Of a stretch of 64,000 nt of DNA, positions 3,401 to 40,633 are shown piece by piece. The stretch's first letter is position 1. Each line of letters opens with the position of its first letter. The stretch is from Romanomermis culicivorax. Its lineage: Eukaryota; Nematoda; Enoplea; Mermithida; Mermithidae. The stretch lies in NCBI GenBank assembly GCA_963922205.1, contig CAWUHX010000012.1, positions 372,001-436,000 of the forward strand, read 5' to 3'. The notes under the pieces are model-generated. The model saw nothing but the letters and a program-made list of their open reading frames with translations, ran no database searches and had not been told where the DNA came from. The position numbers and the translations under genes are program-made.

Positions 3401-4850
3401 CGCAGAGTTGGCAGTTGTTTTTGGGCACGGAGAATGCTTACACTGTTGTATACTTAAAATTTCTACATGGATAGAAACATTACGTCTCACGCTCAATAGA
3501 TTATAATTAATCATCGTAAAACCTTATCAGCTTGTAGCATCCAGCACGACAGAATACCACGCATAGTTTTAACGGCACTCTGACCCAACTCGTATTGTCG
3601 TCCTCGATCATCATCCATGCGGCTAGATATACAGCAAATATGTAAAACACAATCAATTTCAATGCGTTATTAAAAAACGAAATGTTGTAGAAACTATCGA
3701 AAGAAAAATGTCCTCATTGATGATAGTTGTACTCTCCTCGGTCGTGGGAAATAATTGCGATTTAGACTTAACATTTTTAGATTATTCAATACTAAAAATA
3801 GTTCATCAAACAAAAAAAAAACGTAGAAAAACGAATAAACTTAAAAACACAAAATGAATAATTGAGTGGGTGAACAATCCGATTATAAATTATAAGCTCA
3901 AGTTTCAACCCTTACGTATAGGCCGCAGATAACGCAACGCAAGCCAAAGCGCAATAAAGGCTATCCTTTACGTATGCAAGATTTTTTTCGTTAGAATATC
4001 TCGGATATAAACCCGTTGTGTAGCTCTGATGTTGCAAAATCTGACTCTTTACTAAAATATATAAAGCAAATATGAATGGCTTGAAATTTCGGTTGATTCA
4101 ACTTTATTTGTAAGAATTTCAGGCTGGACGTTCATGGAAGAATATGAATAAAGCATACATGTATGGGGGAGAAGTGCTATGAGAACCCCCCCCCCCCCAG
4201 AAATCGTCGACCATATGGCTAGCCATTGGGCGACCGCCCCCCCAGGATTTTCCAATCCAATGGCTAGCCATATGGTAGCCGTAGGAACCCCCATACTTTT
4301 AGTCGAAAAAATACTGAAAAATGTCAATTTTTTGATTAAAAATGTCATTTTTTGAACGAAAAATGGTAGAAAATGTGAATTTTCTTGACGCTTCGCGCCA
4401 TGGATACATTTCTTCGATCTTTTTAGGGAAAAATTACTATTTTTTAACTATTTTTCGGATTTTTTTCATGAAAAAATCAAATTTTTTTTCCTTGAGAGAC
4501 CCCTCCCCCCAAAATTTTGGGAATTACTGACCCCCGGCCCTAAAAAAAATTGCGCAACTCCCCCCCCCCCCGAGACCTCGGGGCTCCGTTACATGTATGG
4601 AATAAAGTAAATAGAATCAAGCATTTTTGTGTGAAATACGTTTCTTATAGAATAAAAACAGAGGAAAGTACAACTTTTTTCTAAATGATTCTCACTTACC
4701 GATTCTATACCATTCATCTAAACGGGTCAAAGTTAGTGATTTATCCTGATTTTTGTATTTGGCGGGAACTCTAACCGTCGTCGTAATGCGCCGGGTTCTC
4801 AGCGAAGTGTCATCGCCGTATTCGCTGGTTGACGTTGATGTTTTTTCCAT
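432..4850 (-). CDS. PHKB: Phosphorylase b kinase regulatory subunit beta, N-terminal part (11 exons; continues past the left edge)
   Basis: PHKB is the regulatory beta subunit of phosphorylase kinase, which activates glycogen phosphorylase. Coding exons on the minus strand, in order: 4850-4700, 4051-3916, 3622-3523, 3256-3149, 3014-2955, 2875-2739, 2531-2372, 2304-2180, 1897-1689, 744-589, 529-432. All have GT/AG borders and phases agree at every junction, giving 480 residues; the family has about 1090, so the C-terminal half is outside. The fold is the alpha/alpha-toroid, glucoamylase-like domain. Diagnostic stretches are [98 protein letters not shown] and SEIDP. The DAHNRNR and NTDASLL stretches favour beta over alpha. 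The start is the first in-frame Met, 11 bp after a strong acceptor (4862-4865); the frame also stays open upstream (CRR), so an earlier coding exon cannot be excluded. No further exon is seen left of 432. Confidence 0.93.
1085..1535. mobile_element. MITE-like element with inverted ends, in a PHKB intron
   Basis: A CATAGGCGTCGC-type sequence near 1100 reappears inverted as GCTACGCCTATG near 1505, each beside a GGTGTAA motif. The ends are inexact and I see no clean target duplication. It lies inside the 745-1688 intron of PHKB. Short frames over it look non-coding. Confidence 0.3.
4154..4599 (+). mobile_element. Family A MITE (CATACATGTA ends), copy A1
   Basis: The element begins CATACATGTA and ends TTACATGTATG, and is flanked by perfect 8-bp direct repeats GAATAAAG (4146-4153 and 4600-4607). 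Inside are C-runs near both ends, a GGCTAGCC-bearing palindromic block, AT-rich spacers and a GCTTCGCGCC half of the shared hairpin. It sits in the PHKB intron between exons 4850-4700 and 4051-3916. An 8-bp duplication is typical of hAT transposition. It has no coding capacity. Confidence 0.85.
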
Positions 4851-4861
4851 GCGTCGGCAAG

Positions 4862-4910
4862 CTAAAAACAACATCGAAAATTACAACTGTAACATATGCA
4901 AATATTTTTA
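4862..4910 (-). promoter_or_regulatory. 3' splice acceptor just upstream of the PHKB start
   Basis: On the minus strand a T-rich tract ends in TTTTTAG at 4862, 11 bp before the PHKB ATG. The LAMTOR2 poly(A) signal lies only about 110 bp further upstream (4976-4981) and the LAMTOR2 stop about 180 bp upstream. There is little room for a conventional 5' exon, so this may be a trans-splice acceptor. Confidence 0.5.
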
Positions 4911-4975
4911 TGGATGTGAAAGTAATGAAATGAGAGATAACTTATCATATAAACTTAGCTGGATGAAAAGAAAAA

Positions 4976-4981
4976 TTTATT
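4976..4981 (-). terminator. Poly(A) signal AATAAA downstream of LAMTOR2
   Basis: AATAAA on the minus strand, about 60 bp after the LAMTOR2 stop codon at 5041-5043. It would place the LAMTOR2 3' end about 90 bp before the first PHKB exon. Confidence 0.55.
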
Positions 4982-5040
4982 TCTGAACTATAAAGCCTGA
5001 TATATGAATATACATGAACGAATGATTACATAAATGCAGA

Positions 5041-8000
5041 TTAGCAAGCCATAACCTGTGACAACGGCGTCTCCAAATATTGTGCCACTGTTTCCAGCTA
5101 AAAAATTCTTCAATTAGTTCAACCGTATTACAATTGGGAATTTTTTATTCCAACAAAGATTTCGTTGAAAATATATCCAAACGATTGAAATCTTGTCATA
5201 TTTGGTTTTTTTCCAGATCAGAAGTCTTATTTACGGATATAAGTCTATGCCGATAAAAGCCATGTTTTATGAACTCAAAATGTGTTATCTAATTTAGTCA
5301 AGAATGATCCAAGAATATTGACGTCGGGATTCTTTGAGGAAAACAGACTATGCTAGAAAAAAAGCATCACTGCTGAACAAAGAAGGAAAAGTCTTACCCA
5401 GAATAATGCAAAAATAGAGCAATCGGCTGTAAATCTGCAACCGTTTCCCAGAACTCAAAATAGAACCCTTCCTTTGAATTATGCAAAATGTTAACCTCAA
5501 ACAAAATCCTGGGATTCCGCCGAATTTTCAAGATGACCGAAAAACTGAATACTATATAATCTGGAAATAGGTAGTAATTGAATTAGATCCAAAAAAACCC
5601 TAATAAAGCTTCCAAAATTTAAGGTGCATCAGTATCCAGAAAGTTTAGAATCGCTTGAAAACATTATCAAACTTCCTTCCAAAATCGAAAATTCTATTTC
5701 ATGAGCGATTATATATACTTAGGCAATACTTTTTGCGAGCTACATAATTCAGATCCCCATTCTAAATAAAATTAATTTTGAATATATTATTCGAAACTGT
5801 AAAGTACAATAATAGAATGCTTAGAAATACATTTTTAGTTGATATTGCAGTAAAAATTATTATGAGAATCAAAAGCTTAAAATCATGCACGCATTCCACA
5901 ATCACAGGGTCAAAATAACAACCTACCTTGAGTTTGATCATTCCTGTTGGCGTAGTTTCTTTTGCGTGCATGCAGAGGTACAAATTTGCAACTTTTGTAA
6001 CAGCTAAAATCCCATTCTAAAAAATTGAGTAAAACGATTATAGAACAATAGAAAATCTTAAAAAGTTACACAAGAGATTATACTTCGCAATCTAAAATCA
6101 AAAATCGTAGTTTTTCTTCGCGGAACGATTCTTGACCATTTTTTTCGTAGCACTGGAATAGATTTGACGCCATGGCGGCCGTGATATTGGCTTTTATGTC
6201 GCTGTTTCCAGCATAGGCTAACAGGGTGCCTTCCTTAGTGATGAGCCTGCAAAAGATCGACTTTGTCAAGTTGACGTGAGCTTGTGAATTGTGGTGCTTA
6301 ATCCAGATACACACAAACTTTAATGAAAGACTATCCACATTAGGCTTTAAATTTAGATTCTACTTTTGTGTAGTTCAAAGCCAGACAAAATTCAAAGAAA
6401 AAAATGGTTGACAAATAATTGTGACACTACGAAACGTTCCACTAATAAATTCATACACGAAGCTCCGAGGTCAGTGGATTTTTCTATGAGTATGGTCATA
6501 ACAAAGGTTGCCCAAAATTTAGGGGGATCGTCTAGGTAGGGAAAGACCGAAATTTTCGACACAAAAATCAGAAAAAGGCTTTTAAAATAGTTCTTGGTCA
6601 CCGAGCACCCGATTCTAGGAGAAAATGGCATATTTAGTGAATATACGGGAACCAACACTTTAAAACTTCGACTTAGCATAATGATCTATGCAAACTTCAA
6701 TGTAAATAAGGCTCACTGTGGAGAACGATTGCAACATTACTCAGATCGCTAACGGCTGTGGCTACCGAGCATGCTTTTTTAGTTATTTTAAGCCGGGTTC
6801 ACACTTATGCTCGTTGCTCGGGGTAGTAGAAAATTCTTCTGCTCCTCCGAGCATACTCGGCGAGCAACACATCTTATAAGTACAGGCACGTCCCAGACTG
6901 GGCTAATATATCAAAAATTGAACAATGCGCGCACGACCAATTCAAAATTTTGCGCGTTCTGATCGGTCGGTAGCAGGGATGTATCGGGCCAGAGAATATC
7001 GGGTCGGGTCAGGCAGTAAAAATACCAAGTCGGGTCAGACACCTCTAGCAAATCAGGTCAAGGGTCAAAAGAAAATATCTTCAGTTCATAAAGTTTAACA
7101 CAAGCACGTGTACTGGCTATGTTACATGCTTGTTTATTATCAAGTGTAAATAAACATTGAAAATGAGAAATGACTCATCTTATTGCTTTCAAATAGTAAT
7201 TGCGTTTTGAGAAACGAGAAATGAAACGAGACAAGGGGAATGAGAAATAAACAAAATCTTCCTCTTATTCAAGGCAAGAAACGGAAACCAATCGGATCAT
7301 TGATTATTGGAAGTAGATCAAAAAATCTGAAATGATAGCCAACGATGGTATGCCCTTCTTATCTGCGGAAAAAATTTTTGTCTAGAATTTAATTTTCTTG
7401 CTTAATCCCAAAAACAGCTCCTTGAAAACTTTCTCCCAGGTACAAGACTTGTTTTTTTATTAAATGCTTGTAAATTGAAGAATGGCCAACCTTGGTCATT
7501 GTTCACACGAAGGTTTTACTATGCAACTTTTTGAATTTAGAAATTATGGAACACTCAATTTGAAACACTATTTTATCTCAAAAAGTTTTGGACACCATAT
7601 CATTGCTTTTAATATGATATTGTTGAATAATTCTTCGTGAATTATGGAAATTGAACGATTTTAGGCATACTTTTTCAGGAGGTGAAGGCTAAAAATTATT
7701 TATCAACCATTATGTCATAAGGAATTGAAGGAAAAAATCACATAGTCATTACATTCAACATTTTTCTTATCACAAATAACCAAAAGTGACCCAAGATTTA
7801 TACTTGCCCAGTAAATAACTACATGCAGGGCTGATTAATCCAAGAATTGCCATAGAAAACAGAATATTATCGATCATAGCTTGCCCGAAAAATCGGCCGA
7901 TATTTAAAAAAGTCAAATATCGGCCGGTGCCAATACACCGATCATTTCCTATCTTTTTTGTAAAACTATCAAGAAAATTTTATTTCTGAAATATATTTAA

Positions 8001-9998
8001 TAATGAATAAATTAATTTCATGTAGAGTAAAATCCTATCTGTTTTTTCTTCTAGCAATGAAAATGATCAACTGCATTTTTTGACCCGTGACCTTTACGGC
8101 ACAGAGGTATCCTGGATAGCGGGTAAGGTAGTCTTTTTTCCTCTTTCGGGTCGGATCAGAAAATATCGGGTAGCATACCTGTTCAAAAGATTCGATACAT
8201 GCCTAATCGCTAGATTTATTTGTGGTATTTAATTTTTTTGCTGTAAAGTTTTTGCCATGTCTATTCGAATGAAAAAGTTGAACTTATTGAACTTAATAGT
8301 GAAAAAAATTTCTATTTAACGTTTAATCCCCTGACTACAAAGAAATTAGGAAAAACGCCGTGTCTTAAAAGAAATTCAGGCAGAAATAGGTATTCAAGGT
8401 ATTGATTTTATGGTTCATACATGGAAAAAAATAAGTATTTTAGGGGATAAATTTGTTCGCGAAGTATGAACCAACAACGAGCATGCTTGGCGAACATGCT
8501 CGGGGTGAATTTTCTGGCCGAGCAGAAGTACGAGCCGGGCTTTAGAGGCATGGGGCCTAAAAATTTGGAAATGCTTCCTAAAATTTTGATTCATATATTT
8601 GTATTTTAGTGAATTATAGTTATTTCCATTCAATGTTGGATTTAGAGTCAGTGTTTTGCAGAGCCTAACATCATAAAACACCTAAAATTTCCCCACGCTT
8701 CGCACCGGATTTCAGTCTATAATTCTTCGGATTGGTCTATCCACTGTTTTTCTACAAATTAAACTTTTGGGGGGGGGGGGAATTTTCGAAAAAGGGAAAA
8801 AATGTTGAAGTTCGACAAGGAAAAGATGAATTTTGGTGCATTTAAGAGGTCAAACTTTCAATTTTTAGAACTTTTTAACATGGAGCCGATTTTAAATTCA
8901 TAATCACCATGGAGGTGATTTCCAGAAATTTCAAGTTAAATTTGAATTTTTTCGAACTCATGGAAGTAAGAGCATATTTTCTAATCTGCAAAATAACAAA
9001 GACGTGTTCTCGAAGACTATGTTTATTGAGTAAATTATCCTTAAATTGATATTCCAGCACTTTAGAACGTCAGAACTAAAAATTCGGGACGTAGTGAAGT
9101 AAAAATACGAAACAACAAAAAAATAAGAACAGACGCTACATTTTCGATACCCTATACTTTTGCGCCTGAAGGACATGAACTCAAATGCTATCTTGGAAGA
9201 AGATTTGTACAAAAATACACGAAATATTGTTTTTCCATACAAAAAAAATCCTCTTTGCACCAAGATATCTTGGCCGATCTTTGTACATGTAGAAAGAGGT
9301 CTGTACCCGCCCGGAATACGCTGGTTGGAAATAAAATTTTGAACAGTAATTATTTTGAAGACGTGTCAACTGATTGAATATTCGTATAATTTAATTATAT
9401 TCACTCCACAGTGTGTCACAAGCCTATTTTTCGATATTCTTCAACTAAAAATTTTTGGCTCTTAAATTTAAATTTGGCTCCTAAAAATTTAGGCATATGA
9501 GCTACTTGGCTCATGATTTTTAAAAGAAAAGGAAGCCTGCATTATGTAACATAGGTGACTAGAGAATTCCCACCGGAAAATGCCTTCTCGTCAGAATCGT
9601 TCTGGGGAAAAAGATCGTGCCTGGAAACCTATTGAATGAAAAAAATTCCGTATATATTCAAATGATCGACTAATTTCGCTTCGGTATTGTTCGAATTTAC
9701 CCATTTTCAGTAGAATAAGAATTTATACAAAAAATCATTTATCCATGATCCAATTCTGAGGATGTCGAAAATTCTCTGTAATCTTGTCCGAATTGCATTG
9801 CCAAAGACATTCATAAAAATTTTCTAATGCTGATACAACTTCTCTGTATAAAGCAAATTTAGCCGAAAATTTTTGACTATTAATGGATAGGGCAGAAATT
9901 AACGGTAAGTATTTAAAAAAATTTATTTACAAAGTCGACAAAATTCCGCCCGTATTTGCCTGGTTCAAAACATCGGCTAACGCTTTCGGCTTGAGCAT
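5041..9998 (-). CDS. LAMTOR2: Ragulator complex protein LAMTOR2 (p14), complete, 4 exons
   Basis: LAMTOR2 is a roadblock/LC7-fold subunit of Ragulator. It pairs with LAMTOR3 on the late endosome/lysosome and helps recruit Rag GTPases, mTORC1 and MAPK signalling. Exons on the minus strand: 9998-9931, 6246-6084, 6016-5927, 5097-5041. All splice sites are GT/AG and the 378 coding bases give exactly 125 residues plus stop, the same length as the human protein. Recognisable stretches are MLKPKALADVLNQANTGG, EGTLLAYAGNSD, ITAAMASNLFQCYEKNG, LRFLILDCENG, VTKVANLYLCMHAKET and VAQYLETPLSQV. The start follows an acceptor (TTGTACAG) by only 2 bp. Intron 1 (6247-9930, about 3.7 kb) is mostly transposon. 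The neighbours ATP5MK (upstream) and PHKB (downstream) are on the same strand with short gaps. Confidence 0.95.
5098..5926 (-). other. LAMTOR2 intron 3, nothing else seen
   Basis: Intron of about 830 bp between LAMTOR2 exons 3 and 4. It is AT-rich with no recognisable repeat end or coding segment; the open frames here are read-through of the flanking exon. Confidence 0.6.
6788..8545. mobile_element. Element with GCCGGGTTCACACTT-type inverted ends, in LAMTOR2 intron 1
   Basis: The left end reads AAGCCGGGTTCACACTTATG, followed by repeated GCTCG/CGAGC motifs. The right end, inverted, reads AAAGCCCGGCTCGTACTTCT with the same GCTCG motifs. This suggests inverted termini of one element, later split by the hAT-like insertion at 6974-8205. 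The ends are diverged and no target duplication was resolved. Confidence 0.4.
6974..8205. mobile_element. hAT-like non-autonomous element nested in LAMTOR2 intron 1
   Basis: It starts CAGGGATGTATCGGG; the inverted right end reads TAGGCATGTATCGAA (11 of the first 14 bases match). Flanks GTCGGTAG and ATCGCTAG match at 6 of 8 positions, consistent with an aged 8-bp target duplication. Subterminal repeats of CGGGTCGGGTCAGG type occur at both ends. No transposase frame is visible. Confidence 0.5.
8546..9930. other. Remainder of LAMTOR2 intron 1
   Basis: AT-rich intron sequence with a poly(G) run near 8769, a CGCACCGG motif near 8700 related to the hairpin of other repeats, and a segment around 9200-9310 (TTTGTACATGT..) resembling the end of the dispersed repeat near 49080. 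No gene is seen. Confidence 0.4.
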
Positions 9999-10178
9999 TT
10001 CTGTACAAGTATTGTTCTGAACAAATAAAAAAGTAAAAATGGCAAAAACTGAAGTAAAACCATTCAGAATAAATAAGACAAAAACATGCAAAAATACACA
10101 TTGCGCCATACGTAACATTTTATTCCACCAACTTATAATTAAAATACATTTATGTTAGGATTAATTATAAGCACGTCT

Positions 10179-10184
10179 TTTATT
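10179..10184 (-). terminator. Poly(A) signal AATAAA downstream of ATP5MK
   Basis: AATAAA on the minus strand about 85 bp after the ATP5MK stop (10268-10270) and about 180 bp before the acceptor in front of LAMTOR2. A second AATAAA lies inside the last ATP5MK codons (near 10276). Confidence 0.4.
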
Positions 10185-10267
10185 TCAAACAACTAACTTG
10201 TCTTCAATCGAAACAATAAATTCTAATGACAAACCAGAACAAACGCAATAAAACGAAATGATGATTT

Positions 10268-10699
10268 CTAATGCTTTTTATTGGAAGCAGGCTGTTCGAT
10301 CGCTTTGTTTTTACTACTTTTGAAAAATTTGAAATAAATAAAAATTCCACCACAGATAGAGAGAACCGATTTGACGACCTTAATAAAAAACTGATTTATA
10401 GTTGCGATGTACTCGTATATTTACAGCCAGAAAAAAATACGCAGGAAACTTTTCCAAAATTTCGTTAGACTCTGAATTCGTCAAAAAATACTTAAAAACC
10501 AGATCATTGAACATTTAGGATAACAAAAAAACTTTCAAGAAGCGAAATACTGGATACTCAGTTTTAATTCGTTTTCAATGACATTCCTTTTTATGTAGAC
10601 TCTAACTTATTCACTTACATTCGCTCTTCCGTCAGTCGTAACCGAATTAAAATATTTGTAGAATCCTTTCAATTCAGGATGATCAGAAGCACCGGCCAT
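10268..10699 (-). CDS. ATP5MK: ATP synthase membrane subunit k (DAPIT/USMG5), complete, 2 exons
   Basis: This is a small subunit of mitochondrial F1Fo ATP synthase, placed in the inner membrane and linked to dimer stability. Exon 1 is 10699-10619 (27 codons) and exon 2 is 10378-10268 (36 codons plus stop), phase 0, with donor GTAAGT and acceptor TTAAG. The protein has 63 residues against about 58 in human. The N-terminal half carries the family signature KGFYKYFNSVTTDGRAN (compare the family pattern G..KYFNS.T..GR.N). Exon 2 gives one hydrophobic segment, residues about 28-46 (VLSICGGIFIYFKFF), then a basic tail with repeated Lys. It lies 269 bp (stop to start) upstream of LAMTOR2 on the same strand. 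Identification rests on motif recognition, not on a search. Confidence 0.75.
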
Positions 10700-14360: not shown

Positions 14361-15138
14361 ACTACTTTTAAAAGGGAATGTCTCATAAGCATTAATCAAT
14401 AAAGACGAAGTTACATATCCACTTTTGTATATCATTATAATCCGGCTTATGAATTTTGAACTAAAATTAAAATAGGTGGTACCCTAAAGTTCTAAACACA
14501 AAATGCCATTCTATTATATCAAAGGCAGACATTTGATCCACTGAAAGTAAAATGCCAGTTAGGTCTTCATTATTTACATAATTAATTACAATGTAGATAA
14601 CAAACAAACCATCTCTAATGGCTCTTCCTTGTACTGCACATGTATGATTTTGAACAATTTTAGGCATAACTTTTTTAAGATGATTAACTAAAATTTTTGC
14701 CAACATTTAACATGGAAATTGGTCTCTAATTGCTTCTCTCAGTTTTGTCACTATCGTTTCCTTTATAAATTTAAGAAATGATACTATGATACATGGACTC
14801 ACAAAGTTTACCCTCTTGAAACATGGTCATGTAAACATTTTTTAAAGCAGGAACTAGGAGATACAAAAATTTCAAGTAAAATTCTATATGGAGACCATCG
14901 CTACCTGGAGACGTTCCCTTTTTAAAGGATTTTATAGCAAGTTTCACTTCAGTTTCAGAAATATATTTTTTAAAAACTTCATTATCACTTCTTTCTTTTG
15001 AAGGCTTGACATCAAAAAAAGAACTTTTATCATTTTTATCCTCAATAGTTGATATAAAAAGTGTACAATACTGATTATTGAATTCGGTCTAGACTTCTAT
15101 AACTTATCTTCCAAAAGAGTTAAGGGTCATTTATACTA

Positions 15139-32700: not shown

Positions 32701-35700
32701 ATAATGGTCGCCGTTGCTCAATTTAAACGACGACGAAAGTAGGTCGCGCAAAGAACATTGGACGTCGGTTGGACCGCCGTCCGGAATATTATTCGGATTA
32801 TCAATCATCAAATCGGCAGAAAAATTATTATTAATCGACGCTGATGAATAGTCACTGGTGTCGCAGCCGATCGGATCGTCGACAGAAAATTTACGATCGC
32901 CGTTCGACAAAACGGACGGTCTGAAAGAACTGGAAAAAGAATTGTCCCGCGACGCAGCAGCTGACGAAGACGACGTAGAAGAGTATAAGGAATCGCAAGA
33001 TGTGGCATTGACTGTTGTAATCGCTACTGTGTTCGTAGCTGGAGAGAAGACGGAGCATGATTTCACATGAAATTTCACGGACTGAATTTTATAGACGATT
33101 GGTACAAATTGAGAGTATCAATAAAAACATGCAAAATTATCCATCGGAGTGATTTTTATCATTGATCAATCCTTTCCTTCAATTCAGCCAAAATAAGTTT
33201 GTCATGAACCTGAAGTCCGCATATTTATTTTGAAGTTTTAAAACTTTTGAAGACAAATATGTCTCCGTGTTAACATCACAAAGCATACATGTAATTGGGG
33301 GGGAAGTGCTATGGGAACCGCCCCCCAGAAATCGTCGACCATATGGCTAGCCATTGGGCGACAGCCCCCCAGGATTTTCCAATCCAATCGCTAGCCATAT
33401 GGTAGCCGTTGGGACCCCCATACTTTTGGTCGGAAAAATACTGAAAAATGTCAATTTTTTGATTAAAAATGTCAATTTTTGAACGAAAAATGGTAAAAAA
33501 TGTGGATTTTCTTGGCGCTTCGCGCCATGGATTTATTTTTTCTGTTATTTTGGGGAAAAATTACTATTTTTTGAACTATTTTTGGGACTTTTTTCGTGAA
33601 AAAATCGAAGTTTTTTTCTTGAGAGACCCCACCCCCCAAACTTTTGGGAATTACTGACCCCCAGCCCCAAAAAAGTCGCCCAACCCCCTCCCCCAGACCT
33701 CGGGGCTCCGTTACATGTATGTCACAAAGCATAATTTCACTACAAAGCTCAATATGATGCTCAATATGGTACTCAATATATAACAACGAACGAAAAATAT
33801 GGACGTGCTTTGACTTTACAAGAAGTTTATATTGCAGCACATTACGGATGCATGTTCGAACAAGTTCAAGATCTAAAATTCCAGATATTGCACAACAAAG
33901 ATGGAAAAGTTGGACCAAGCATACATGCACATAGGGGGTAGAGGGTAAACCCTATTACCTGAGACCCTGAACACCCCCTAGCATGAAAAAAATCGTCAGG
34001 CACCCTCTGAACTTTTCCCAATACGTTTTTTTCGATTACTTCATATATATTTTGTATGAAAAAATATGCCTGTGGAGCTCTTTTTTGGTCACCCCGGCCG
34101 CCACCCCCTTCGATTAAAAGCCCCTGGAAAATTTTTGCCGTCCATGTCTGAAAACAAGATTACCAAACAGCCAATCGGATTTCATTCTTTTTCAGCGTTT
34201 CAAGCCTCTTCCGATATTTATATTTTCCATTAGTTTTCGTAAAAAATGTCTCAATTACAACCCATATATGCAAGCGGGCCTATTGTTTGATAAGAGAATG
34301 AACGTTTTATACTTTATATCAAGACGAATATTGTATCCCATGGAGTGATAGGTACAACGAATACTAAAGTGATAGGCTTTCGAAATTAAGGCTTATAGTT
34401 CAGTCCATCATATAAAATCATCAGATCGTGTGATTGGAAAATAACACACGAAATGATACAATTGTTCTTCTAAGAATGACCAATATTTGGCAAATATCGT
34501 CTATTTTTCACAGAAAACTTTTATGAAATAAAAATTGATTAAATGAATTTGCGATTCACTTCCATCTAAAAACATAGGTGGTAGGTAAAAGAAAATTTTT
34601 TCGGACTGGAAAGAAATGTTTCAGGACATCCGACCAAAAAAACTTCCTCAGAGTTTCCATTCATAATAAAATGTTCTCCTGAACCCTCACCATTCATAAG
34701 TGAATTTTGACCACTGATACCCATCATTCGTTTAGGAGAATTTGATGATGAAGGATCATTGTGTGACCAAGATCGTATCTGACCCACGGGCGTCGTTTGA
34801 ACGGCGCTTTTAACGTTCTTTGGATGTTTGGTCGCGCTGGTCCGGTATCGTTTGGCTTCTTCGGTCAAATCGACAGTCCACCAGGAGGGTTTGTCCATTC
34901 CGTTTCGTTTAACGCGTTTGAAACGACTGTGCAACGACAAATTATGACGAACTGAATTCTAAAAAATTAGAAATATCATTTTCGAGGAAAAAGCTAATGG
35001 TGAATAGGGTAAAATTTCGAAACGAAAAATAATCAACTTGGTAACATTCAGTATTTTTGTCTGTTTTCATGATAATGATGCCCGAACGATTATGTTCACA
35101 AAAAAATTGCGAAAAAATTACTTTCAAGAAAAAAGGTCTGTTAAGTCTCTTCTTCGCTGAGGGATCTTAAAAATATGGGGCTTTACATACAGGTATACGA
35201 AAATCAATGAATTTTATGTATAAGCTCATCAAAGACAAAATGTAAATAATAGAACCGAAAAGCACCCCCAATAATAGCAATTAGAATCATACTCTAATTG
35301 CACTGTTTACCTTCCACCCAGTAGAGCTATGCAAATTTCGCTGGTTCTTGAAAGCGTCAACATTCTTCACCATCCAATCATAAATTTCAGCCAACGTCAT
35401 GCGCTGCTCGGTCGATGTCAATATGGCCTGAAGCAAGAAGAAAGTGAACCTTAATGAGGAGTTTCGAACATAATGAGGATGCGTAGTTTCATTAAAAGAT
35501 TCTATAATTGACGAAATGTGCGGGGAAAATGTTGAGCTAAAAAGGCGCAAAATTGAGACCGAAAAACTTGGAATCGAGACAACCAGACGATAAAAAACAA
35601 AAATATATATATCCTCAAAAATATTCTGTTCGGCTTGTGAAGCATATCAATCGAAATCATCGGGATTTATGGAACGCAGCGAAAAATTGATAGCCGATGG

Positions 35701-38700: not shown

Positions 38701-40358
38701 TTGGACAACTCGTTTTTTGAATCAACCTGTATTATTCCCTCATTACTTGCGTTATAAGCTCAACGTAGGAAGGATGCCCGGAACGATAGGTCACGGTAGG
38801 CTGATTCATAAAAGTGGCCCGTCCACTAGATGCGGTGTCTGTATTGAACGGCAGTCTTTGGTTGGACTGAGGCCATTGTGAACCAGCTAAAATAGAAAAA
38901 ATGACTTAGAAAACGGCAACAATGTAGTTATGGCTGGAAAATGGGAATCGGTAAGCCATTCGATTTACAATGCATGACGCATGAATTTATCTAAAGGGTC
39001 CACTTGTACAACAACCACACTGCAGTCTGTACTTGTGGGAGGATTAGAGCTTCCTCAGACTACTGACCTGATGCATAAGTGTGTGTACCTTCAAGAACGC
39101 TTCACGTCAAGATTTAAGTTCTTAAGCGATCATTTTTCTCAAGTCTGAAAATCCTGCAAAAAGAAAAGAACATCTAAAGGAAATAAAAAACTTTCATCAA
39201 CAGACAGCAAACAACATAAACGTCATTTCTAACATTTGGCGCCAAAAATATGATCAAGAAGAATATTTTTCTTTACTATTATGTTTATATCTTTCACGTT
39301 TGTTTGTAAATTTGAACGACGTGACAAATGAGAACCCACAGACTTGAGTTGTAGAGACAATTTGTTGCGTTCATTTTCACTATCAGACTTCCGATGACTA
39401 CAAAAAGAGAACTGATAATCAGACGAAAGTGTACAGACTTTGTGTCAAAATGCCACCCAGAAGCTCTATATTTTACGAATGTTCCAGTCCATTGTTGACA
39501 GCCTCTTACTGTTGACGCACCAAACTTTCACGCTCATACACACAGTAACCGATGAGTTGTGATACCTTACAATAAACCTAAACAAAGCTAATTTTTGTGT
39601 CGTCAACACCAAGTTTAGGTCATTTATAGTGCATAAGTAACCTAGCATTGTAAAATTGCAGCGTGACAAAAGACAATTCGACAGAAAATTAAAATCTTCG
39701 TTTTTTTGACTCCAGTCTTCGATTCAATCAATCGTAGTCAAGTTTTGTTCGTGAACAAGTTCGATGATTTTAAAACTTCCTTTTTGAGTAAAAAAATTCA
39801 GCCCCTGATGGTTGAAAAAATAATAATAGAGGTTACATTTTCTTGTAGTTTTCTTAGGTGTATTTTGAAAGTCAGACAAAAGCACACCGTTAAACAATAG
39901 GAAATAGACGGTCCCATTTCGAAAGACTAAAGCAAGGGAAATATGCAATTCGAAATTTCAAAAAATCAAACTTTCTACTTTAGGTAGAAATAATCGATTC
40001 ACCAAACATTCTCACCGCCGTTAAGCGCTGCGTTTGAACCTAGATCGTCAGCGCTGACCGTCAATGTGGACGAAGCGGCGCTAGCTAAACTTTCGTTACT
40101 TTCCGAAATTAAACTCAATCCCAACGTCGACGAACATTGCGAGGCACTGAGCGGCGAAAAATTCGGCGAATAGACGAAATGAGCGTAAGGATCATTGGAG
40201 TAACGATAAGAATCTGTAATAAAATTTCGATGTTGCTGTTGGCTCTGTGGATGATGATTGTGAATATTGGCTTGGAAATGGCCGACATGGCTACTAGGCC
40301 AGGTATTCGAACGCTCTCTGGCCAAGTTGTACGTTTCGTTCAAATCTTGTTTGTCCAT
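29751..40358 (-). CDS. FOXO: Forkhead transcription factor FOXO, complete, 8 exons, 715 residues
   Basis: FOXO is the insulin/PI3K-AKT-controlled forkhead activator of stress-resistance and metabolic genes. Exons on the minus strand: 40358-40016, 38886-38747, 35427-35311, 34958-34691, 33038-32691, 31824-31536, 30996-30764, 30160-29751. All are GT/AG with matching phases; 2148 bases give 715 residues. An N-terminal AKT motif RERSNTWP puts the phosphothreonine at residue 19. The forkhead domain spans about residues 150-235 (SYVELITQ, RMTLAEIYDWMVKNV, the FOXO-specific five-residue insertion NLHSSTGWK, then NSVRHNLSLHSRF and PSWW). A short leucine motif CSLRDLL is at about 384-390. The rest is Ser/Asn/Ala-rich and probably disordered. 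The second AKT site (RRRAAS in other animals) reads RYRTSA here, with alanine at the acceptor position. The ATG is 17 bp after an acceptor, so the 5' UTR is spliced. Introns hold family A and C MITEs. Confidence 0.95.
33284..33721 (+). mobile_element. Family A MITE, copy A4, in a FOXO intron
   Basis: CATACATGTAATTGGGGG start, CCGTTACATGTATG end, perfect 8-bp duplication TCACAAAG (33276-33283 and 33722-33729). It contains GGCGCTTCGCGCCATGG. Near-complete copy, in the FOXO intron between exons 34958-34691 and 33038-32691. Confidence 0.9.
33920..34150 (+). mobile_element. Family C MITE, copy C2, in the same FOXO intron
   Basis: Starts CATACATGCACATAGGGGG and ends CCGTCCATGTCTG. Flanks GGACCAAG and AAAACAAG match at only 5 of 8 positions, so this copy is older or its target site has decayed. 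Confidence 0.7.
36524..36958 (-). mobile_element. Family A MITE, copy A5, in a FOXO intron
   Basis: Reverse-oriented copy from CATACATGTAACGGAGCCCC to CCAATTACATGTATG, with a perfect 8-bp duplication CTTAATAT (36516-36523 and 36959-36966). It lies in the 3.3-kb intron between the two forkhead exons, about 200 bp from copy A6 in the opposite orientation. Confidence 0.9.
37158..37565 (+). mobile_element. Family A MITE, copy A6, in a FOXO intron
   Basis: Starts CATACATGTAATTACGGGG and ends CCGTTACATGTATG; flanks GTGGAAAC and ATAGAAAC agree at 6 of 8. With A5 it forms a large inverted pair (arms about 400 bp) that could fold back in the FOXO pre-mRNA. Confidence 0.85.
37566..38746. other. Rest of the 3.3-kb FOXO intron
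   Basis: AT-rich intron; a CGGTTTCGG/TTTTCACGGTTTCGG duplication lies near 38010-38080. No exon or element border is seen. Confidence 0.4.
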
Positions 40359-40375
40359 AATTTGGGAATAATCAG

Positions 40376-40390
40376 CTATAAACACGAAAA
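40376..40390 (-). promoter_or_regulatory. 3' splice acceptor before the FOXO start
   Basis: GTGTTTATAG on the minus strand directly before the exon that carries the FOXO ATG (17 bp downstream). It implies a spliced 5' UTR or a spliced leader. Confidence 0.5.
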
Positions 40391-40633
40391 TTATAAATTA
40401 AAACTGAAATTCTACTAATAAGTTGACGATATAATATTTCCCTGGAGGGGTTGGTTGCAATAAATAGGATAATCCCGAGCTCGATATAATCGCAAACTTT
40501 GCACACAAAACATATAGAAAAAGTTCGCGATTACCTCGATTATGGCTACCGGCCCCCGATGTTCACAATGACTGATTTACTAGGCCAACGAAATCGACGG
40601 CTTTCGAAAGATTTCATTAGTAAATAAAACCCA

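Follow-up and report, generated by a model that had tools for sequence, protein, structure and literature searches.

In a 64,000-nucleotide stretch of the genome of Romanomermis culicivorax, a mosquito-parasitic mermithid and clade I nematode (contig CAWUHX010000012.1, positions 372,001 to 436,000; hereafter the window), three functionally unrelated genes, ATP5MK, LAMTOR2, and PHKB, lie head to tail in this order on the minus strand (Table 1). A preliminary description of this DNA had reported such an arrangement with gaps of 269 and about 190 bp, and our gene models give exactly 269 bp between the coding regions of ATP5MK and LAMTOR2 and 190 bp between those of LAMTOR2 and PHKB. Both gaps fall within the roughly 100 to 400 bp that separate same-strand genes in nematode spliced-leader (SL) operons. 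The other gene-to-gene gaps in the window, judged from open reading frames (ORFs), are roughly 10-20 kb, as had been described, and two of the neighboring genes were confirmed by their forkhead and SET domains. The two-exon ATP5MK model matches PF14960 (E 6.2e-13) and the joined LAMTOR2 model PF03259 (E 1.1e-13). For PHKB, a later exon at 1597-2043 matches chain B of PDB 8jfk, phosphorylase kinase beta (E 4.7e-19), slightly better than it matches the alpha subunit (1.6e-17); Pfam gave no match in any of three PHKB exons. In our view, this cluster is probably an operon resolved by SL trans-splicing.

The preliminary description placed a strong acceptor 2 bp before a LAMTOR2 ATG at 10000; in our gene model the ATG is at 9998, the site 2 bp before it (TTGTACAG, at 10001) is weak, and the strong acceptor lies 18 bp before. 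The acceptor described 11 bp before the PHKB ATG is present and reads GTTGTTTTTAG, and the AATAAA noted after LAMTOR2 is found at 4981-4976, about 113 nt ahead of this acceptor. At both downstream genes, an acceptor just upstream of the ATG (10017 and 4862) is thus preceded by a poly(A) signal about 100 nt earlier (10124 and 4981, respectively). Assuming cleavage 10-20 nt past these signals, the predicted distance from cleavage site to acceptor is roughly 90-100 nt; the median spacing in C. elegans operons is given as 99 bp in the consulted part of one account (PMC7986045). When we applied a rule for T-rich acceptors located within 21 nt of an ATG, 27 of the 2332 ATGs in the window passed, LAMTOR2 and PHKB among them. 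The rule is stringent but ad hoc, for of the four cis acceptors predicted in these genes three do not pass it. Under looser acceptor thresholds, 6 to 25 of the 2332 ATGs passed, and the PHKB site (8 pyrimidines, 7 of them T) fell below those thresholds. The Ur-like motif UAYYUU has one occurrence in the 190-bp gap and three in the 269-bp gap; with a background of about 0.29 per 100 nt, it was too common to count and was dropped.

Table 1. Features of the ATP5MK-LAMTOR2-PHKB cluster, in window coordinates and in order of transcription.
Feature	Position	Strand	Remarks
ATP5MK exon 1	10619..10699	-	ATG at 10699; first gene of the cluster
ATP5MK exon 2, through stop	10268..10378	-	gene model
Intercistronic region 1, 269 bp	9999..10267	-	AATAAA at 10184 and 10124, T-rich tract, acceptors at 10017 (strong) and 10001 (weak)
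Strong acceptor CTTTTTTATTTGTTCAG, proposed trans-splice site	10017..10033	-	18 bp before the LAMTOR2 ATG
LAMTOR2 exon 1	9931..9998	-	ATG at 9998
LAMTOR2 exon 2	6084..6246	-	gene model
LAMTOR2 exon 3	5927..6016	-	gene model
LAMTOR2 exon 4, through stop	5041..5097	-	gene model
Intercistronic region 2, 190 bp	4851..5040	-	AATAAA 4981-4976, acceptor at 4862
PHKB acceptor GATGTTGTTTTTAG, proposed trans-splice site	4862..4875	-	11 bp before the PHKB ATG
PHKB first coding exon	4700..4850	-	ATG at 4850; GTAAGT donor next, read by eye

To judge from this layout, the cluster has the anatomy of SL trans-splicing substrates, and the genes described below indicate that the postulated mechanism is present in the genome. 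A single promoter upstream of ATP5MK would give rise to a polycistronic pre-mRNA, in which each upstream message would be cleaved and polyadenylated past its AATAAA. The SL small nuclear ribonucleoprotein would then add a 22-23 nt leader at the acceptor before the next ATG, at 10017 for LAMTOR2 and at 4862 for PHKB, and the outcome would be capped single-gene mRNAs. We infer the co-transcription of the three genes, the promoter, the leader on the LAMTOR2 and PHKB mRNAs, and the type of that leader from the layout.

The preliminary description had proposed a search for SL RNA genes. Our search of the genome (359,112,060 bases in 595 contigs) recovered two kinds, which we call SL-A and SL-B. SL-A1, on contig 148, was the sole match of a genome scan with the Rfam SL2 model (RF00199; 27.8 bits, with 48 of 71930 candidates scored), and its alignment spans the whole model, from the leader GGTTTATACCCAATTTACTAAG through the GT donor, a stem-loop, and CAGTTTTTGAA to the terminal hairpin. 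SL-A2 (contig 53, leader GGTTAATACCCAATTTACTAAG) has leader, donor, and Sm region in common with SL-A1, while its stems differ in sequence yet pair. A third SL-A copy, 6.5 kb from SL-A2 (L042, contig 53: about 284130), has a poly(A) run inside its leader. The SL-B leader, GGTTTTTACCCTAAAATATTAAG, was first noticed beside leader relics of SL-A; contig 184 holds 15 copies of the SL-B donor-to-Sm segment and contig 248 another three, of which one differs by one base. Four of the 15 genes on contig 184 (L137, L138, L139, and L140) are broken by poly(A) within the leader, so that intact leaders number 14 for SL-B (11 on contig 184 and 3 on contig 248) and two for SL-A. In the six SL-B genes that were read with their leader, the upstream flanks are near-identical.

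SL-A1, SL-A2, and SL-B all combine a leader of about 22 nt and a GT donor with stem-loops, an Sm-like site some 20-60 nt from the donor, and a terminal hairpin. When folded with the Sm-like site (T5G) kept open, each forms a hairpin at the donor, an inner stem-loop, and a terminal stem, which is of nine pairs in SL-A1 and SL-B and of eight out of nine in SL-A2. SL-B folds better than shuffled sequences (z -3.51). A genome scan with Rfam SL1 (RF00198) gave no match among the 50 of 149498 candidates scored, and Rfam found nothing in the window or in four loci around SL genes; a 3-kb stretch around the SL-B gene L134 on contig 184 likewise had no Rfam match. Neither leader is present in the window (SL-A searched with up to 4 mismatches, SL-B with up to 3). 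On contig 184 (597 to 338800), the SL-B genes share a strand and are spaced about 15-61 kb apart, in several cases near 15 kb. Five SL RNA genes, four SL-B and one SL-A, look as if they had been targets of non-long-terminal-repeat (non-LTR) insertion at two sites in the leader. Ahead of one of these (L138; upstream sequence L143) is a 1180-codon frame with APE endonuclease and reverse transcriptase domains, whose link to the inserted element is putative.

Beyond the SL RNA genes themselves, leader sequences are scattered through the genome. The SL-A leader pattern, allowing up to three mismatches, occurs at 19 places against 2 for the reversed pattern, and the SL-B leader pattern at 173 against 3. 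Our count of relics covers all 19 SL-A places and 80 regions representing 81 of the 100 listed SL-B places, out of the 173 SL-B matches; 19 listed places and the 73 unlisted matches lie outside it. These 99 loci gave 99 records, 8 of SL genes and 91 of relics, which became 4 and 89 when identical ones were collapsed. One relic record (L011, minus strand) was a chance match and was set aside, leaving 88; L021 (SL-A, 3 mismatches), with no recognizable leader or leader-like 3' end, was also set aside. The 88 records form 30 groups by their downstream sequence, and in the sampled places the leader stands at the start of the insert. Upstream, of the 86 flanks that were long enough, 77 stand alone and nine fall into four small groups, which may be segmental copies.

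Of ten frames from the relics scanned for domains, two gave nothing and another two had no match that reached the curated cut-off. In five element families, the frames encode APE endonuclease, reverse transcriptase, or PHD domains, and we class these leader-tagged families as non-LTR retrotransposons. Five downstream groups include single-leader copies of both kinds, SL-A and SL-B; in each group, as read by eye, one such pair of copies shares its junction. One family carries a leader of SL-A2 sequence (L012), an SL-A1-like leader with one difference (L013), and an SL-B leader (L054). Since the leader differs between copies of one element at one junction, it is not the element's own but was added to its RNA. 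Stacked leaders of at least two units are found in 8 of the 88 records, three of them directly abutting and the rest 4 to 58 nt apart. One element is joined to the SL-A leader at two points 6 nt apart (L011 and L014), which is compatible with alternative trans-splice acceptors. We also considered whether the junctions between leader and retrotransposon arose by NeSL-type insertion into SL genes. We rejected this because most upstream flanks of the relics bear no relation to one another and, on inspection by eye, none is an SL gene promoter, and because the 3' end of the leader is complete. The interrupted SL genes look unlike the relics, as in them an A run is followed by the 3' part of the leader.

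Retrocopies of host genes are also among the relics, and the domains found in them are LSM, thioredoxin, TCTP, LIM, and RING; the LSM- and thioredoxin-domain copies we take to be LSM5-like and protein-disulfide-isomerase-like (PDI-like), respectively. The five host copies identified by domain have 4 to 62 bp between junction and start codon, the same arrangement as at LAMTOR2 and PHKB. An intron that interrupts the PDI-like parent on contig 233 between 281817 and 283115 is missing from the retrocopy on contig 218, which runs on without a break there. The leader of the copy continues directly into GAAATAAAATTTTAAAACC-ATG; at the corresponding place the parent has TTATTTATTTAAG / GAAATATAATATTAAAACC-ATG (junction ...TTATTTATTTAAG / GAAATA...), and the junction falls precisely on an AG acceptor, 19 bp ahead of the start codon. 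Between the TCTP retrocopy and an intact TCTP copy on contig 143, homology starts at the junction, where contig 143 reads TTTTTTATCCTTAG / GGCACAC; the status of the latter as parent is uncertain because its coding part is intronless too. The LSM5-like copy (L073 / L128, contig 111: 394657-394919) is intronless and leader-bearing, with a complete 91-residue frame, an AATAAA, and an A-rich tail; the 13-bp duplication that flanks it has one mismatch. As no second DNA match to it was found in the genome, and hence no parent, this retrocopy may be the working gene. A convincing target duplication was seen in none of the other four host-like copies examined. The marks of a retroposed trans-spliced mRNA (5' leader, intron loss, poly(A), duplication, and parent acceptor) are all represented across the copies, with no single copy having all of them: the PDI-like copy has intron loss and the parent acceptor, and the LSM5-like copy the A-rich tail and the 13-bp duplication. 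An RRM-domain gene (L133, contig 39: about 250138) has an SL-B-like leader with one mismatch directly before its ATG and, by eye, seems to keep introns further down.

The shared, unencoded leader that the preliminary description had suggested looking for on mRNAs was thus met with at the level of the genome, in cDNA relics whose SL leaders are joined at AG acceptors before the start codon (the PDI-like and TCTP pairs). Because SL RNA genes, leader-tagged relics, and the PDI-like junction at its parent's AG acceptor coincide, we regard SL trans-splicing in R. culicivorax as well supported.

Several observations weigh against reading the cluster as an SL-resolved operon. The 27.8 bits of SL-A1 are below the curated Rfam SL2 cut-off of 41, so SL-A was not filed as a member of that family despite its SL2-type resemblance by alignment, and SL-A2 and SL-B had no Rfam match up to E 5. 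Folding against shuffles was modest for SL-A1 (z -1.26) and SL-A2 (z -1.69). The general donor-to-Sm pattern gave 35 matches against 29 for the reversed control and is therefore useful solely through its identical copies. The T-rich acceptor rule was set after the sites had been seen, and ATP5MK, with no rule-passing acceptor within 150 nt before its ATG, is without a strong nearby acceptor. Genome searches with LAMTOR2 and with PHKB exon 1 found no retrocopies; in these searches both are single-copy, and so no fossil cDNA bears a leader on either. Finally, the downstream genes could have their own promoters in the gaps and yet receive a leader.

This last arrangement, trans-splicing without an operon, supposes that a separate promoter within the short intergenic stretch drives each gene and that a leader takes the place of the outron. 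It would draw on the same support for trans-splicing in this genome, and nematode trans-splicing also acts on single-gene transcripts; the proposed first exon of FOXO, a stand-alone gene, likewise has an acceptor-like TTTATAG 17 bp before its possible ATG at 40358. We nevertheless think it unlikely, as a mere 190 or 269 bp would have to hold a 3' end, a promoter, and an outron, and as two tight gaps follow one another where gaps elsewhere in the window are so much wider. That the three are ordinary cis-spliced genes, with 5' exons further upstream, inside or before the neighbor, and overlapping transcripts, strikes us as very improbable. The cluster acceptors do resemble the predicted cis acceptors of LAMTOR2 and ATP5MK, and a distant 5' exon is possible, but both downstream genes would need noncoding 5' exons nested in a neighbor, and a simpler mechanism is already in the genome. 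Chance compaction of unrelated genes with chance acceptor-like sequence is scarcely credible, for although AG sites are plentiful in AT-rich DNA and the acceptor rule is post hoc, few ATGs pass it, both downstream genes do, and two gaps of <300 bp occur in succession.

An operon resolved by SL trans-splicing has close precedents. SL trans-splicing and operons are established in clade I, in Trichinella and Trichuris, according to the part of the literature consulted (PMC7986045), and the cluster would therefore belong to a known kind of operon. It resembles the SL2-type operons of C. elegans, Trichinella spiralis, and Trichuris muris in its head-to-tail unrelated genes, in the roughly 100 nt expected from poly(A) site to acceptor, and in an acceptor near the downstream ATG. 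An SL2-like leader RNA gene is found here too, in that SL-A1 aligns end to end with Rfam SL2.

The leader-tagged relics also have counterparts. Excerpts of published accounts describe 597 leader-bearing retrotransposon loci in flatworms (PMC12582326), trans-spliced transposable element transcripts in Hydra (PMC12220107), and a spliced mRNA from the C. elegans LTR element Cer1 that carries SL1 (PMC3315495). In all of these, retrotransposon RNAs receive host leaders, and in flatworms the leaders are also fixed in the genome; beyond what these excerpts describe, R. culicivorax has differing leaders at one junction, stacked leaders, and a host retrocopy with the acceptor of its parent. In dinoflagellates, SL-tagged retrogenes are reported (PMC6050394, PMC12014239), and retroposed cDNAs likewise keep the leader as a genomic relic; here the host is an animal, with nematode-type leaders and machinery. 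NeSL non-LTR elements are described, in the consulted section of one paper, as inserting in nematode SL genes (PMC4640811), and in R. culicivorax, too, there are SL genes whose leader is broken by a long A run. The NeSL clade has a restriction-like endonuclease, whereas the single frame examined, in the sequence ahead of one interrupted gene, codes for an APE-type endonuclease and reverse transcriptase. The leader-tagged elements are separate from NeSL-like insertion because their upstream flanks are not SL genes. In the portion of the literature searched, we found no report of genomic leader relics in nematodes and none of the leaders of Romanomermis or other mermithids; the terms operon, trans-splic, and leader are all absent from the available text of the R. 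culicivorax genome paper (PMC3890508).

A tentative possibility, which we stop short of favoring, is that trans-splicing feeds retroposition and that relic leaders are exchanged or overlaid in later rounds. The RNA of a non-LTR retrotransposon would receive a host leader and be reverse transcribed along with it; in the following round, the relic leader, which ends in the acceptor-like TTAAG or CTAAG, would give way to a new leader or be overlaid by one. Such a cycle would explain SL-A1-like, SL-A2, and SL-B leaders at the junction of one family, as well as stacking. Host mRNAs would take the same route, and the intact, leader-carrying LSM5-like copy may have replaced its parent. If this is true, the genome is a readable archive of the 5' ends of trans-spliced mRNAs. 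Leader-tagged retrocopies offer a route to showing trans-splicing and mapping acceptors from DNA alone in species with active long interspersed elements. With leader sequences and SL RNA genes in hand for a mermithid, existing RNA-seq could be read for trans-splicing and operons. The cluster also bears on a proposal, set out in the consulted part of PMC2749850, that basal nematodes with CTCF lacked operons, though other clade I operons are already known (PMC7986045).

Elsewhere in the window, reverse-transcriptase-like ORF fragments lie at 14470-15088 on the minus strand, one of the two matching RVT_1 weakly, at an E of 0.00046 that falls short of the curated cut-off. The proposed first exon of FOXO is at 40330-40420 on the minus strand, and the forkhead domain at 34569-34958; given the TTTATAG ahead of its possible ATG, FOXO may also receive a leader.

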